Positions 9,147 to 26,689 of a DNA stretch of 28,591 nucleotides are shown here, piece after piece (position 1 is the first letter of the stretch; every line of letters begins with the position of its first letter). The stretch spans positions 1-28,591 of IMG/VR virus record IMGVR_UViG_3300009703_000081, one strand, 5' to 3'. A program made the position numbers and the translations under genes. The notes beneath the pieces were generated by a model, which had not been told where the DNA came from, made no database searches, and worked only from the letters and a program-made list of their open reading frames with translations. This DNA is from a virus.

Positions 9147-9319
9147 TTAAATGTGAACTGGATTTGTTAAGCATTCGTACATTATACGATGCCGTTTGCG
9201 ATGCAATTAAAAATTGGCCTGGCTCTCCAGCAAGACCCGCTGAACAACAAGAAGATTACTTGCAACTGAAAACATTTTTATTTAGTATGCTATGTGAAGC
9301 CTCTTTGAAAGACGAATGA
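9140..9319 (+). CDS. Small hypothetical protein, 59 aa
   Basis: An ATG at 9140 overlaps the end of the DUF6321-like gene by 7 bases and opens a 59-residue frame (starting MVIKCELDLLSIRTLYD). It contains WPGSPARPAEQQEDY and ends EASLKDE. The composition is protein-like and the frame uses the same codon style as its neighbours. It has no motif I can tie to a function. The TGA stop overlaps the next ATG (ATGA). The tight overlaps on both sides are the main evidence that it is real; I also recall very similar short proteins in cyanophages. Confidence 0.6.
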   Translation: MVIKCELDLLSIRTLYDAVCDAIKNWPGSPARPAEQQEDYLQLKTFLFSMLCEASLKDE

Positions 9320-9426
9320 AAAATCAAAGCTACATTCAAGGATCTCCCAAAAAAACGAGCCAAGGACAGGGCAAGCACTCAAAAAGCAATCACGGAAGAA
9401 AAAAATTACGTGGACAAGGCAAATAA
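9316..9426 (+). CDS. Very small basic Gly/Lys/Ser/Gln-rich protein, 36 aa
   Basis: Begins in the stop of the preceding gene (ATGA) and encodes MKNQSYIQGSPKKTSQGQGK followed by a His/Lys/Arg-rich end, KLRGQGK. The strongly basic, low-hydrophobic composition suggests nucleic-acid or virion association; no domain is recognisable. Similar tiny SPKK/GQGK-type proteins occur in cyanophages, as far as I remember. It ends 34 bases before the lysozyme gene, with an A+T-rich palindrome in the gap. Without a homology search its reality rests on the start/stop overlap and composition. Confidence 0.5.
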   Translation: MKNQSYIQGSPKKTSQGQGKHSKSNHGRKKLRGQGK

Positions 9427-9435
9427 ATTGTTATA

Positions 9436-9457
9436 TTATTGATAATGATTTATCATT
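9436..9457. repeat. A+T-rich palindromic stretch before the lysozyme gene
   Basis: The sequence TATTGATAATGATTTATCATTA contains TGATAA/TTATCA and, in an alternative register, TAATGA-TTTA-TCATTA. It directly precedes the lysozyme ATG at 9461, where no Shine-Dalgarno is present. TTGTTA and TATCAT separated by 17 bases give a possible promoter in the same place. It may be an operator or merely A+T-rich. Confidence 0.25.
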
Positions 9458-9460
9458 AAC

Positions 9461-14338: not shown

Positions 14339-16627
14339 GTGGCAGATAGGAAGATCTCAGAATTATCAGCAATCGCGGGTGCAGATATTGCAAACGACGA
14401 TTTATATACGGTTGTTGATGTTTCTGAAATAGATCCGGGACTTAAAAATAGAAAATTTACTTTCCTTGCATCCAGGGAATATTATAATATTTATTATTTA
14501 CAGTTAACTGGTGGCATTATTGCCGGTAGCTTAACAGTTGATAACGATCTTACTATTGGTGGAACGTTTGCCCCCCTAAACGTTCAAATATCGGGCACTG
14601 GTACCTTTAACCAATTAGTTTGCACGGGAACCGGAGAGTTTAGAAACTTACTCAGCGGCAACACAATTACTGGTTCGGACTTAAGGGGTACCAATGCTAA
14701 CATCACAACAGGAAATATTACAGAAATTATTTGTGTAACAATTACAGGTACATCTGCAGGTTTTACAGTCGTTACGGGGACCACTGTAACAGGATCAACA
14801 GGTAAATTCACACAAGTTACAGGCCAAGAAATTGCAGGTGTTAGTGGTTTATTTAGTTTAGTTAGTGGCGCTGCTATTACTGGCGCAGCAATTAATACAA
14901 CCGGTACGTTATCTGGTACCACTATTACCGGTGAAACAGGTAAATTTACAAACATTCAATCAACAAACATTACCGGCACAACAATTACCGGGATTACAGG
15001 TAAGTTTTCAAATATTAGTGGAACTAATATTACTGGTTTAACCATTACCGGTACAACCATAAAAGGAACAACAATTACCGGAAATACTGGAACATTTACT
15101 TCTTTAACGGGAACAACAATTACAGGACAAACCGGTAAGTTTATAAGCTTTAGCGGAACAACTGGTAATTTTGTTTCTTTAACAAGCCAATTTATTACGG
15201 GATCTACAGAGATATCCGGCTTAACAATTAAATCCCCAACAGGTGATTTTAATCAAATCACAGGAGAAACAGGAACATTTACAACAAAACTAAGCGGAAA
15301 CACGGTTACTGGTAATACAGGTTTATTTACTACGCAGCAAGCTGTTTCCGGTATTTTTACAACTAAACTAAGTGGTCAAACAATTACTGGCGTTACTGGA
15401 CAATTTACCTCTTTAACAGCTTTAACTGGTACATTTATAAATCAAGTAAACATTCCCAGTATTTCAACAACAGGTGATGTTGAAATTGGTGGAGATTTAA
15501 CTGTTACAGGTAGTGGTTTCTTTCAAAGCAATATATCTATTACCGGAACAGTAAGTGGCACTACTCTTTCCGGAATTACTGGCACCTTTGGTGACATTAC
15601 TTCAAACACAATTACAGGTTCAACTTTAATTACAGGTGAAACAATAAATGCAAACAATATTACCGGTACAACAATTACCGGTGTTACGGGTAAATTTACG
15701 TCAATAACAGGAACAAATATTACTGGTGTGAACATTACCGGTCAAACCGGTAAATTCTCAAGCATTAGCGGTACCAATGTTCAAGGAATAACCGTTACGG
15801 GTACTACAGGTAATTTTGAAATTATTAATGTTTCAAGATTAGATGCCACAACAAAAATTTCTGGTTTAACAATCACTGGTCAAACCGGACAATTTAAAAC
15901 AGCAACAATTAGTGGCTTTAATGCCATTTCGATTACAGGTACAACCATTACCGGTACAACTGGTAATTTTGAATCCATTACAGCAACTGTAATCACAGGC
16001 ACAACAATTACCGGAACAACAGTAAAAGGTATTACTGTTACAGGAACAACAGGTTTATTTGATAACTTAACCGGAAATACAATTGGATTTGGAACTCTTG
16101 ATGTTGAAACAGGTAATTTTACAACTGTAAGTGGTGTATCGGGTACTTTTACAGATACCTTATCTGGTGAAATTATTGCGGGTCAAGATTTATCTGTAAG
16201 CAGAATTACAGGCAGTACCAGAGTTGTTACTGCTTTATTAAGTGGTACCACAATGACAGGCACCACGGGCAGCATTCACTTTGTTTCCGGCTCCACAGGA
16301 ATTTTTACAGATCTTATTTCCGGAGATTTTATTACTGGTGGCACCTTAATTGAATCAGTAACTGTTACAGCTACGACCGGTAATTTTACTGTTGCAAACT
16401 TTGTTACCACAACAACGGGAAATATTATTTCTAGCGGTTATATTTCAGGAGCTTCTGGTCTAAGAACAGAAAGAATGATCAGAGGCGCAATGATTGAAAC
16501 TAAAATAGTTTACGAAGAAGATCAAATAATTGAAAGTGGTTTTAATGGATTTTCAATTACACCACTTACATTATCAAGTGGAGTTACTGTTACAGTACCA
16601 ACTGGCTCAATTTGGCTGACAGTATAA
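14339..16627 (+). CDS. Repetitive tail-fibre-like protein (762 aa, ITGTT-type repeats)
   Basis: GTG start; the N-terminal ~45 residues (ADRKISELSAIAGADIANDD) look like a phage fibre attachment module. Residues ~100-680 consist of a degenerate ~13-16-residue unit such as SGTTITGQTGKFTSI, repeated dozens of times with Gly/Thr/Ile/Ser dominance; this is expected to form a long trimeric beta-structured shaft. The end (GFNGFSITPLTLSSGVTVTV, PTGSIWLTV) resembles C-terminal caps of phage virion proteins. There is no S74 chaperone domain here, unlike the next gene, so it may be the proximal fibre part or use the neighbour's chaperone. Reverse-strand open frames opposite the repeats are shadows. Host-range role is inferred. 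Confidence 0.78.
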   Translation: MADRKISELSAIAGADIANDDLYTVVDVSEIDPGLKNRKFTFLASREYYNIYYLQLTGGIIAGSLTVDNDLTIGGTFAPLNVQISGTGTFNQLVCTGTGEFRNLLSGNTITGSDLRGTNANITTGNITEIICVTITGTSAGFTVVTGTTVTGSTGKFTQVTGQEIAGVSGLFSLVSGAAITGAAINTTGTLSGTTITGETGKFTNIQSTNITGTTITGITGKFSNISGTNITGLTITGTTIKGTTITGNTGTFTSLTGTTITGQTGKFISFSGTTGNFVSLTSQFITGSTEISGLTIKSPTGDFNQITGETGTFTTKLSGNTVTGNTGLFTTQQAVSGIFTTKLSGQTITGVTGQFTSLTALTGTFINQVNIPSISTTGDVEIGGDLTVTGSGFFQSNISITGTVSGTTLSGITGTFGDITSNTITGSTLITGETINANNITGTTITGVTGKFTSITGTNITGVNITGQTGKFSSISGTNVQGITVTGTTGNFEIINVSRLDATTKISGLTITGQTGQFKTATISGFNAISITGTTITGTTGNFESITATVITGTTITGTTVKGITVTGTTGLFDNLTGNTIGFGTLDVETGNFTTVSGVSGTFTDTLSGEIIAGQDLSVSRITGSTRVVTALLSGTTMTGTTGSIHFVSGSTGIFTDLISGDFITGGTLIESVTVTATTGNFTVANFVTTTTGNIISSGYISGASGLRTERMIRGAMIETKIVYEEDQIIESGFNGFSITPLTLSSGVTVTVPTGSIWLTV
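14655..16350 (+). repeat. Degenerate short coding repeats of the fibre shaft
   Basis: Many near-repeats of the type ACAATTACCGGTACAACAGG encode (S/G)GTTITGxTGxF units throughout the 762-residue gene. The units differ in third codon positions, so they are old and diversified rather than freshly copied. The same unit recurs in the N-terminal third of the following fibre gene. Short near-identical tracts allow length change by recombination or slippage. Confidence 0.7.
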
Positions 16628-23033: not shown

Positions 23034-23182
23034 AGAATAAAAAAGAAATTAAAGTTAATATTTGTTGGGAATTAGGAAAAGAAAAAAAATGCGTAACCCT
23101 CAATAAAAATGAGGCTTACGCAACTAAAAAATGGGTTGACGAACAGGGAGGAGTTGTATTTTGGTTCCAACCTGTTGAATAA
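23030..23182 (+). CDS. Small hypothetical protein, 50 aa
   Basis: Starts inside the lysin stop (ATGA) and encodes a Lys-rich product, MKNKKEIKVNICWELGKEKK, continuing with YATKKWVDEQGG and ending VVFWFQPVE. It is beta-rich in appearance with no membrane helix, so it is not an obvious holin; a tiny regulatory or lysis accessory role is possible by position. The stop is immediately before the convergent holin-like gene (1-base gap). The start/stop overlap and clean composition support it. Confidence 0.55.
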   Translation: MKNKKEIKVNICWELGKEKKCVTLNKNEAYATKKWVDEQGGVVFWFQPVE

Positions 23183-23344
23183 TCAGCGCTGTTTTGCTTT
23201 ACCGATAACCAATGCAACAGTCTCTAAAACTTTGTAAATACCTTTGAGGAAGTTGTCATCCTTTGGGGTAGGAGTCATAGCAGTGATAACACTAGCTGCA
23301 GCATGAACGGCTAATGCAGCTTCAATGTATTTAGCGAAATCCAT
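23183..23344 (-). CDS. Holin-like small membrane protein, 53 aa
   Basis: A reverse-strand frame reading MDFAKYIEAALAVHAAASVI then TAMTPTPKDD, a second amphipathic or hydrophobic helix (YKVLETVALVIGKAKQR) and a basic end. The two short helices joined by a TPTPKDD turn, plus the positive C-terminus, resemble small phage holin-like proteins found beside endolysins. It would form lesions in the inner membrane to release endolysin. It converges with the lysin and 50-residue genes and lies at the end of the reverse-strand run 24523-23183. Too short for certainty, but the pattern is good. Confidence 0.6.
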   Translation of the reverse strand: MDFAKYIEAALAVHAAASVITAMTPTPKDDNFLKGIYKVLETVALVIGKAKQR

Positions 23345-23365
23345 GAGTAATAAATGAACACCTTT

Positions 23366-24552: not shown

Positions 24553-25218
24553 TTACTCTTTTAAAATATTCTGGTTTTCCAAAGGATTTGAAATATTCAT
24601 TTTCATTCCTTGCAAGCAGAGTTGATTATTGCCTTTATTGTTGCTGTACAACATAAGTTTTTCAACATCAAACTCTAAGATCATTTGATTAATTGTTTTT
24701 GGAGGCAAAGATCTATTCCAAGAAGACACAAGATGCAAGGGATTGGCGCACTTAGGGTTTTGACAAGTTCTTGTAACTCGAAATTTACCAACATCTCCCC
24801 AGGAGCACTGGTATATGGCCTTATGAATAGAAACGTTTTCAGATAAATTGTTGCTATATTCACTGCGATATGAAGGCATCTTAATTCTTTCAGGACTATA
24901 GATAGTTTTTGTTTTTATTTCCCAGCATTCTTTCGGATCTCCAATATTAATTTGTTTCCATAGCTTTTGATATTTGATTTTATAGGCAGAATCAAGATAG
25001 TTTATATCAAAACCACAGGCATTAGAAAGGATTTTTTGAACACAGAAATAACACCAATGTTTTTCTTTATGACGAATGATGTGACCATGAGGGCAAGGAA
25101 AGCCTTTATAGAACCCAATTTCATCTAGCTCTTGATCAGAACGAGAAGCAATCCCTGGATCATAACTAAATTGAGTCGCATGAGACACTTCATGATACAT
25201 CCGATTGAGGTTGGCCAT
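24553..25218 (-). CDS. HNH-like zinc-binding protein with a degenerate nuclease core (221 aa)
   Basis: Two Cys/His clusters are seen: GFPCPHGHIIRHKEKHWCYF then CVQKI (C42, H44, H46, C56, C59) as a zinc ribbon, and VTRTCQNPKCANPLHLVSSW then NRS (C152, C157, H162, N168), which resembles the HNH_3 pattern HxCxNPxCxNPxHL..gtxxxN. The His that should precede the first Cys (general base) is Arg (TRTC), so it may be inactive, or a divergent homing-type nuclease, or a DNA-binding protein. The N-terminus reads MYHEVSHATQF, rather like a zinc-peptidase HExxH site but without the Glu-spacing needed. It starts 19 bases before the inverted-repeat array, which probably controls it. Confidence 0.6.
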   Translation of the reverse strand: MANLNRMYHEVSHATQFSYDPGIASRSDQELDEIGFYKGFPCPHGHIIRHKEKHWCYFCVQKILSNACGFDINYLDSAYKIKYQKLWKQINIGDPKECWEIKTKTIYSPERIKMPSYRSEYSNNLSENVSIHKAIYQCSWGDVGKFRVTRTCQNPKCANPLHLVSSWNRSLPPKTINQMILEFDVEKLMLYSNNKGNNQLCLQGMKMNISNPLENQNILKE

Positions 25219-25236
25219 GCAGAGAATCAGACTTTT

Positions 25237-25330
25237 GGGTTATTTTTTCTTTAGTATAACCCACAGTACATTATCGGAGTATTGTACTGTTAAAACTTTT
25301 CATCAGTACAATATTTTGTTTATGTACTGT
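25237..25330 (-). promoter_or_regulatory. Array of three inverted repeats with identical 12-bp spacers
   Basis: GGGTTAT (25237-25243) pairs with ATAACCC (25256-25262); ACAGTACA (25263-25270) pairs with TGTACTGT (25283-25290); CAGTACA (25304-25310) pairs with TGTACTG (25323-25329). Every spacer is 12 bases, the last two palindromes share one half-site sequence, and their centres lie 40 bp apart. On the reverse strand GGGTTATACT contains an extended -10-like TATACT. The array could be a tandem operator for a dimeric repressor, or transcribed hairpins. It sits directly before the reverse-strand HNH-like gene. Confidence 0.6.
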
Positions 25331-25352
25331 AGATAGGGGTAAAGTATAAAAG

Positions 25353-25373
25353 GTCTGAAAGTCTGAAAGTCTG
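25353..25373. repeat. Tandem 8-bp repeat GTCTGAAA (2.6 copies)
   Basis: GTCTGAAA GTCTGAAA GTCTG runs head to tail between the inverted-repeat array and the terminator. Its complement CAGACTTT also occurs on the other side of the array (25228-25235), so the array is flanked by inverted copies. It may be further binding sites or a slippage product. Confidence 0.5.
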
Positions 25374-25406
25374 CACAAAAAAAGACCGGAGCAAAAGCCG
25401 CCGGTC
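25374..25406 (-). terminator. Strong intrinsic terminator of the D5-speD-GT operon
   Basis: On the reverse strand GACCGG and CCGGTC form a perfect G+C-rich stem (+ coordinates 25401-25406 and 25384-25389), with three more inner pairs around a TTTT loop, followed by seven T. It stands 24 bases after the stop of the 419-residue glycosyltransferase and is the clearest terminator in the window. Confidence 0.88.
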
Positions 25407-25429
25407 CAAGCATTCAAATTTTAAAAAAA

Positions 25430-26689
25430 TTAAACTTTAACGGCAGCTTTCTTTTTAGTTTTTTTGGGCTTTACAATTTCAGGTTTTACTTCATCCTCCA
25501 CTCGGACAACCTCCTGGAAAACATCATTGAATTTAGACGCAACAGTTTCCCATTTAAATTGAGGATGGGTTACACGATCGTAACAAGACTGAGCAACCTG
25601 GTCCAAAAATTCACGGTCTTCATAATACTTACCTAAAATTTCAGTCAAGTGATCGTCTTCGGGACAAGGCATGATGCGACCAAGATTATGGTCTACATCG
25701 TTATGAAGAGATCTAATCATCTCACCTGTACCTTCAAAAATTTCTTTACAAGAAGTGTGGTTTGGTACGACTTGAGCAACTCTGCAAGATGCGTGCTCAA
25801 AGTTGACAAGACCCCAACCTTCCCCTTTGCAAGTATTGACACCAACGTCACATGCGTTATAGATGACGTTTAACAGTTCAAAAGGGACAGCGGGTGCATG
25901 AGGACTGGGCGAAGTCATAATGATTCTGTTATTAGGATCCAGCCCTTGACGATTCATTTCTCTTGCAAACAAAGGCATGATATCCCAACCCATATCCTTT
26001 AATCCCATATGGAGATAAAGCTTAGTGTCAGGGCGATCAACAGCAAATTTTGCAAAGGCACTTACTGTAATATCGATGCGTTTTCTAAATTGATTTCGAT
26101 TGCCATTAAAGACAATAAAATCATCCGGATTTAAGCCAAGTTGTTTTCTAGCCTCTACTTTATCCATAGGATAGAATTGTTTTTCTGTTAAGCCATGAGG
26201 AATAACAGTAATAGGCTTTGTGGCACCTGCATTAATAGTTTCTTGAGCACCAAATTCGGTATAGCAAACAGCAGCATCCCATTCGTTAAGAGTATCAAGC
26301 AAGCCGCCATACCACTCATAGGAATCCATGGGATAATAACCCACGAATTTAAAACCAAGAGTTTCTCTTAGATCTTTGATACGATTAAATTGTTCATTGA
26401 TAATCCAACTATCATTGATCGTACAGATGACATCAGGTTTGATTTGTTCAACAAGGCCACGAATACGATCTTCACCAAAAGGAGCAGTTTGAAAACGATT
26501 AGAAGCAGGATATAAAAAATATTCTTGCTGAAGAGGAGTTGTATCACCATGCCAATTACAACCAAGCACATGGATTTCATAATTACCAGTTGCTTTTAAA
26601 CGTTTAAGAACGTTTTCGGTTACCCTTGCAAAACCCGTAGTAGCAACAATGTCACCAACCCAAAGAAGTTTAATCTTGGTATCAGCCAT
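25430..26689 (-). CDS. GT4-family glycosyltransferase (419 aa)
   Basis: A full-length GT-B enzyme. The N-terminal domain opens IKLLWVGDIVATTGFARVTE (the usual donor-side loop with a Phe-Ala-Arg variant). The C-terminal domain has HGLTEKQFYP, then GLNPDDFIVFNGNRNQFRKR and IDITVSAF, and the sugar-nucleotide block CDVGVNTCKGEGWGLVNFEH, in which the two Glu of the EX7E motif are recognisable. The last ~25 residues are Lys-rich (KPKKTKKKAAVKV), probably a flexible basic tail. It transfers an NDP-sugar to an unknown acceptor. It follows speD by 22 bases and ends before a strong terminator, so it is the last gene of a primase/helicase-speD-GT operon; no separate promoter is seen. Confidence 0.87.
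   Translation of the reverse strand: MADTKIKLLWVGDIVATTGFARVTENVLKRLKATGNYEIHVLGCNWHGDTTPLQQEYFLYPASNRFQTAPFGEDRIRGLVEQIKPDVICTINDSWIINEQFNRIKDLRETLGFKFVGYYPMDSYEWYGGLLDTLNEWDAAVCYTEFGAQETINAGATKPITVIPHGLTEKQFYPMDKVEARKQLGLNPDDFIVFNGNRNQFRKRIDITVSAFAKFAVDRPDTKLYLHMGLKDMGWDIMPLFAREMNRQGLDPNNRIIMTSPSPHAPAVPFELLNVIYNACDVGVNTCKGEGWGLVNFEHASCRVAQVVPNHTSCKEIFEGTGEMIRSLHNDVDHNLGRIMPCPEDDHLTEILGKYYEDREFLDQVAQSCYDRVTHPQFKWETVASKFNDVFQEVVRVEDEVKPEIVKPKKTKKKAAVKV

Follow-up and report, generated by a model that had tools for sequence, protein, structure and literature searches.

The question raised by this locus is what purpose is served by a group of inverted repeats located between a transcription terminator and a reverse-strand HNH-like gene in an uncultured virus. 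The first-pass annotation described an array of three perfect inverted repeats, all with 12-nt spacers, and proposed a multi-site operator, an origin-like element, or a small RNA with three loops. In the window (the whole 28,591-nucleotide stretch analyzed), the three repeats were recovered, including two palindromes with the half-site TGTACTG whose centres are 40 bp apart, as were the bracketing repeats (CAGACTTT at 25228-25235 and a tandem AAAGTCTG at 25358-25373, within the outer left arm) and the position of the block between terminator and gene (Table 1). The terminator is absent from the consensus-scan listing. The block had also been called the largest gap in the window, a description that fails, as the ORF-free stretches 9147-9460 and 23034-23365 both exceed 25219-25429.

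Alignment of the region with its own reverse complement revealed that the repeats, real as they are, do not form an array of separate units; they are pieces of one 158-bp dyad, larger than first described. Its arms of 77 nt each (left, 25375-25299; right, 25294-25218) flank a centre at 25296/25297 with the sequence AAAAGTTTT, and 52 of 77 columns are symmetric between the arms with zero gaps. Its dyad score was 54; the runner-up in the window scored 33, and none of 1000 dinucleotide shuffles exceeded 32. The three perfect 7-nt repeats with 12-nt spacers were likewise not reached in any of 1000 shuffles (mean 0.03); the window as a whole contains eight repeats of this kind. On the minus strand, the dyad begins just past the glycosyltransferase terminator and reaches as far as the initial A in the start codon of the HNH-like gene, hereafter HNH-B. 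The inner half-site of the dyad reads ACAGTACA.

Table 1. Coordinates of the dyad element, its parts and the adjoining genes in the window.
Feature	Position	Strand	Details
Whole element, 158-bp dyad	25218..25375	-	Self-complement alignment, dinucleotide shuffles, compensated changes in relatives
Outer right arm, TGCAGAGAATCAGACTTT	25218..25235	+	Arm ends on the A of the HNH-B start codon
Third inverted repeat, GGGTTAT-N12-ATAACCC	25237..25262	.	Halves 25237-25243 / 25256-25262; unconserved in relatives
Conserved TATACTAAAGAAAAA, -10-like box reading towards HNH-B	25244..25258	-	Identical in L004 and L031
Inner palindrome (right), CAGTACA-N12-TGTACTG	25264..25289	.	Halves 25264-25270 / 25283-25289
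Inner palindrome (left), CAGTACA-N12-TGTACTG	25304..25329	.	Halves 25304-25310 / 25323-25329
Outer left arm, repeated CAGACTTT (TGCAGACTTTCAGACTTT on the minus strand)	25358..25376	-	Pairs with 25218-25235
HNH-B, 221 aa, zinc/HNH-motif protein, proposed element binder	24553..25218	-	PHROG endonuclease, 9e-13
Intrinsic terminator of the glycosyltransferase gene	25377..25406	-	Stem 25384-25406, T run 25383-25377; seen in sequence
Glycosyltransferase gene, upstream neighbour	25430..26689	-	phrog_2170, 6e-56

The window belongs to the lineage of the cyanophage Synechococcus phage S-EIVl, whose neighbourhood of D5-like primase, speD, glycosyltransferase and HNH-B it matches. The same neighbourhood was present in many uncultured contigs, and one contig, IMGVR_UViG_3300011013_000021, carries the same genes at 100% identity. 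S-CBS4 and TJE1 were rejected as same-locus relatives; the glycosyltransferase is common, but the gene order around the element differs. No regulatory or replication site for the S-EIVl lineage was described in the literature searched, which did not include the original S-EIV1 paper. In S-EIVl, HNH-B (KJ410740.1 7135-7725; L109:5980-6570) is apparently mis-annotated with only a later start, its 5' part being covered by the annotation of two small ORFs on the opposite strand. In L024, L043, and L058, the element and HNH-B are located between speD and the glycosyltransferase gene rather than after the latter, suggesting that element and HNH-B move together with respect to the glycosyltransferase gene. 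Elsewhere in the window, a long ORF with TGxTITG-like repeats (14339-16627) probably encodes a tail-fibre protein.

Upstream of HNH-B, a dyad scoring at least 44 was present in 27 of 45 distinct relatives compared to none of 45 control stretches, with median scores of 52 and 24, respectively. Whole-genome dyad scans of 13 genomes (window included) and 8 long genomes placed the HNH-B site at or near the top of the genome's dyads in most cases, with one such site per genome; the site was weak in a few long genomes (G024, G026, and G027). In the weak-scoring group, the outer arms and inner half-sites are still visible by eye. Dyads ranged from 120 to 340 bp, with arms of 77-131 nt and inner-palindrome spacers of 11-14. 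The dyad adjoins the same genes in the relatives but differs in sequence between lineages: outer arms of TGCAGA/CAGACTTT are found in the window and many relatives, with other sequences in distant ones, while the inner half-site is AAATnACA in most relatives and AGGCGACA, CCCGTACA, or others elsewhere. The element yielded no DNA match to annotated phages. A second recurring palindrome, AGTCTCA-TGAGACT, lies between terminator and element in some relatives (e.g. L008 and L014) and was not seen there in the window.

Covariation, which the first-pass annotation had named as a check, was observed within the window's own lineage, where three pairs were changed on both arms and 97.7% of alignment cells were paired, a value matched by none of 500 shuffles and compared to at most 53% in slid controls. 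Half-site pairs also covary in the short-form group. The right inner palindrome is the same in L004 and reads CCGTACA/TGTACGG in L031 and L033, while the left one reads CCGTACA-N12-TGTACTG in L031 and has one half altered in L004. Both CAGTACA palindromes retain their spacing in the closest relatives, except for one arm in L004, and L031 carries a 33-bp insertion at the dyad centre. The loss of palindromes and spacing in relatives, which was to count against the repeats, was thus not found for these two. It was found for the third, which is present in the window and lost in L031 and L004, while the TATACTAAAGAAAAA inside it stays identical; its 12-nt spacer is therefore probably a coincidence.

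A rival reading is an RNA hairpin: folding of the dyad in read-through transcripts would mask the start of HNH-B, which would stay accessible in transcripts initiated at an internal promoter, as in T4 homing endonucleases. For one of these, an inhibitory hairpin has a precedent (PMC2988022). Consistent with such a role, the right arm ends at the HNH-B start codon, and each strand folds much better than shuffled sequences do (z about -7), the element forming one long hairpin on either strand; good folding of both strands is, however, expected of any dyad. Mismatches showed no coding-strand G-U bias (90 G-T and 138 A-C against 107.5 and 120.5 expected), the distance from dyad to start codon varies among relatives, and a stem has no need of repeated use of one half-site. 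The G-U asymmetry weakly favours the antisense strand (p 0.02), and the promoter scan showed none on the antisense strand nearby. Rfam returned only matches below gathering scores, mostly to eukaryotic miRNA families. The hairpin is accordingly disfavoured and considered improbable, and the proposed three-loop small RNA is disfavoured by the unconserved third hairpin, the single long fold and the same lack of G-U bias.

Conservation of HNH-B across the lineage is reflected in a mean column identity of 57% in 48 sequences; the protein combines an N-terminal Cys/His zinc-type pattern with an HNH motif. The gene is freestanding, neither GIY-YIG nor intron-encoded, and in many relatives is accompanied by an HNH_3-like protein, HNH-A. 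The HNH motif aligns only with I-PpoI, at a weak E of 0.5-0.7. His98 is the general base of I-PpoI; the corresponding position in HNH-B is Arg in 44 of 48 sequences (Arg150 in the window), Lys in one, and His in three. Histidine is kept in a few relatives (L063, L075, L178-type, and L271), and the distant L271 combines it with a similar element. HNH-B thus seems to have lost the cutting residue, and by this comparison most members would no longer cut. A fold search was set aside as proof of ancestry, as the matches to I-PpoI, NFI, and SMAD-MH1 were weak (E 0.6 to 5). The L271 contig (PCBA01000062.1) was binned as a gammaproteobacterial MAG and is probably a phage contig.

Comparison of half-sites and proteins revealed joint variation. 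Half-site distance was correlated with distance in HNH-B residues 76-130 (partial r 0.60, controlled for neighbour-gene distance between genomes; 0 of 2000 permutations), and the best 4 of 131 protein windows were all in HNH-B. Windows of speD correlate too, up to 0.57, suggesting that shared ancestry explains part of the joint variation. Within HNH-B, residues 113-127 vary with the half-sites; columns 119-127 and 113 stand out, mapping to two predicted strands, and the stretch between them, that immediately precede the HNH helix. Elements next to an HNH-B with the loop SKQK or SKQR carried at least two AATnACA half-sites in 24 of 28 cases, compared to 5 of 43 for other loops. The lineage of the window pairs the loops SNNL, SENL, or SRDL and Lys113 with the half-sites CAGTACA or CCGTACA. 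Among disjoint close pairs the loop effect was weak (p 0.07), and the number of independent lineages behind the joint variation is small, the sequences being related. The sequence of the element turns over between viruses while its symmetry persists, probably because HNH-B binds it and in this way governs its own expression.

One pair of close relatives, L216 and L217, differs in a manner consistent with this pairing. Identity between the two is ~97% for the glycosyltransferase and for the final third of HNH-B; for the element, for HNH-A, and for the preceding two thirds of HNH-B it is 60-85% (97% in one block). The outer motif copies are altered together, from ACCGGAATGAA to ACACAATGAA, as are the inner sites. 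Their HNH-B proteins are 90% identical, with differences clustered in the half-site-correlated segment. The region (L216:3450-4413 and its counterpart in L217) has the appearance of an allelic exchange that took in the element together with HNH-A and all but the final third of HNH-B, in phages otherwise almost identical. Swaps of this type were sought in other close pairs and are not general, this being the only clear case.

The element also carries a putative promoter. The conserved TATACTAAAGAAAAA is present in a single copy in the genome, overlaps the third repeat and is abutted by the right-hand CAGTACA palindrome; no -35 match was found for it. In 18 of 44 elements the gene-facing arm had the higher -10 score of the two arms, and in 1 of 44 the lower, a bias indicative of a directional promoter on the DNA. 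Furthermore, the half-site motif recurs ahead of the HNH start in several relatives and, in the case of S-EIVl HNH-B, follows TATAAT.

On the basis of these features, the explanation preferred here, held with middling confidence, is a dyad-symmetric operator/promoter to which HNH-B, and perhaps HNH-A as well, would bind for autoregulation. HNH-B, in many relatives together with HNH-A, would occupy the palindromic half-sites, which are ACAGTACA in the window and mostly AAATnACA in other lineages; on the right-hand site, abutting the -10-like box, it would shut off or set its own transcription, and binding on both arms could be cooperative. We infer the binder, its loss of cutting and the autoregulatory outcome, all three, from sequence facts. 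The first-pass interpretation holds up in part: of its three readings, the multi-site operator is the best supported, given the kept palindromes, the half-sites varying with HNH-B and the gene-facing -10-like box; arms of 77-131 nt exceed the need of a plain operator and count against it.

The main rival to the operator is a replication origin, in which a symmetric A+T-rich site would be loaded bidirectionally by the D5-like (superfamily 3) primase-helicase encoded upstream, or by HNH-B as initiator. There is one element per genome, located within the primase-speD-glycosyltransferase cluster; the primase carries D5_N and DUF5906 domains, in most relatives the A+T content of the element is higher than that of the flanking DNA, and variable sites in a fixed layout recall iterons. 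However, a GC-skew extremum at the element was absent in 11 long genomes, skew being a weak predictor in phages, and a raw GC-skew flip at the element, considered as an origin signal, vanished at 4-fold sites. The 4-fold skew of the glycosyltransferase was about -0.09 to -0.10 whether the gene was upstream or downstream of the element. The origin-like element of the first-pass annotation is therefore without support from skew. Furthermore, primase regions showed little variation with the half-sites (partial r 0.06-0.22), and the -10-like box is one-sided. An origin is considered rather unlikely.

A recombination or attachment site (attP or a resolution site), or else the termini of a small transposable element, would account for the inverted outer arms and for the occurrence of element and HNH genes either before or after the glycosyltransferase gene. 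An integrase is encoded about 5 kb from the element in three relatives, these carriers of a tyrosine integrase being the L080, L073, and L060 contigs (G021, G025, and G024). Against this, 11 of 14 genomes had no tyrosine integrase match and none of 14 had a serine recombinase or resolvase match, while transposon or MITE ends would be expected in several copies and not, as here, one per genome. Attachment sites and transposon ends are disfavoured, with a very low probability.

Building on the operator/promoter, a more tentative proposal, doubtful in itself, is that HNH-B descends from a homing endonuclease and now acts as a sequence-specific DNA-binding protein, forming with the dyad a fast-evolving, module-exchangeable specificity pair that perhaps decides incompatibility or exclusion between co-infecting relatives. 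A symmetric site turning over with one segment of a neighbouring protein would provide a natural series of protein-DNA specificities and suggests a route from HNH nuclease to regulator. Many uncultured phages represent the S-EIVl lineage.

Three known systems offer comparisons. Iteron origins, as in plasmids and satellite phage P4, are bound by superfamily 3 or plasmid initiators and consist of repeated or inverted short A+T-rich sites with lineage-specific sequences. The element is similar in its repeated and inverted short A+T-rich sites of lineage-specific sequence near a D5-like primase-helicase gene, and is dissimilar in the lack of skew support, the variation of its sites with HNH-B and not the primase, and the one-sided -10-like box. 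In lambdoid-type operators, paired palindromes differ between immunity groups together with the binding protein. Here, too, paired palindromes differ between related phages together with an adjacent protein; unlike the lambdoid case, no HTH repressor was found beside the element, and the partner is apparently a zinc/HNH protein. The third is the T4 homing endonuclease I-TevI, for which autorepression through a binding site overlapping its own promoter has a precedent (PMC2988022). As with I-TevI, the putative binding site is located just upstream of a nuclease-family gene, and it may overlap the promoter, a palindrome abutting the conserved -10-like box. I-TevI is an intron-encoded GIY-YIG enzyme and has one operator; the dyad here, of 120-340 bp with two-fold sites, adjoins the gene of an HNH-motif protein that in most cases lacks the I-PpoI-type histidine. 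Regulation by the element is most likely in the manner of I-TevI autorepression, by a protein that by fold is not of the I-TevI family.
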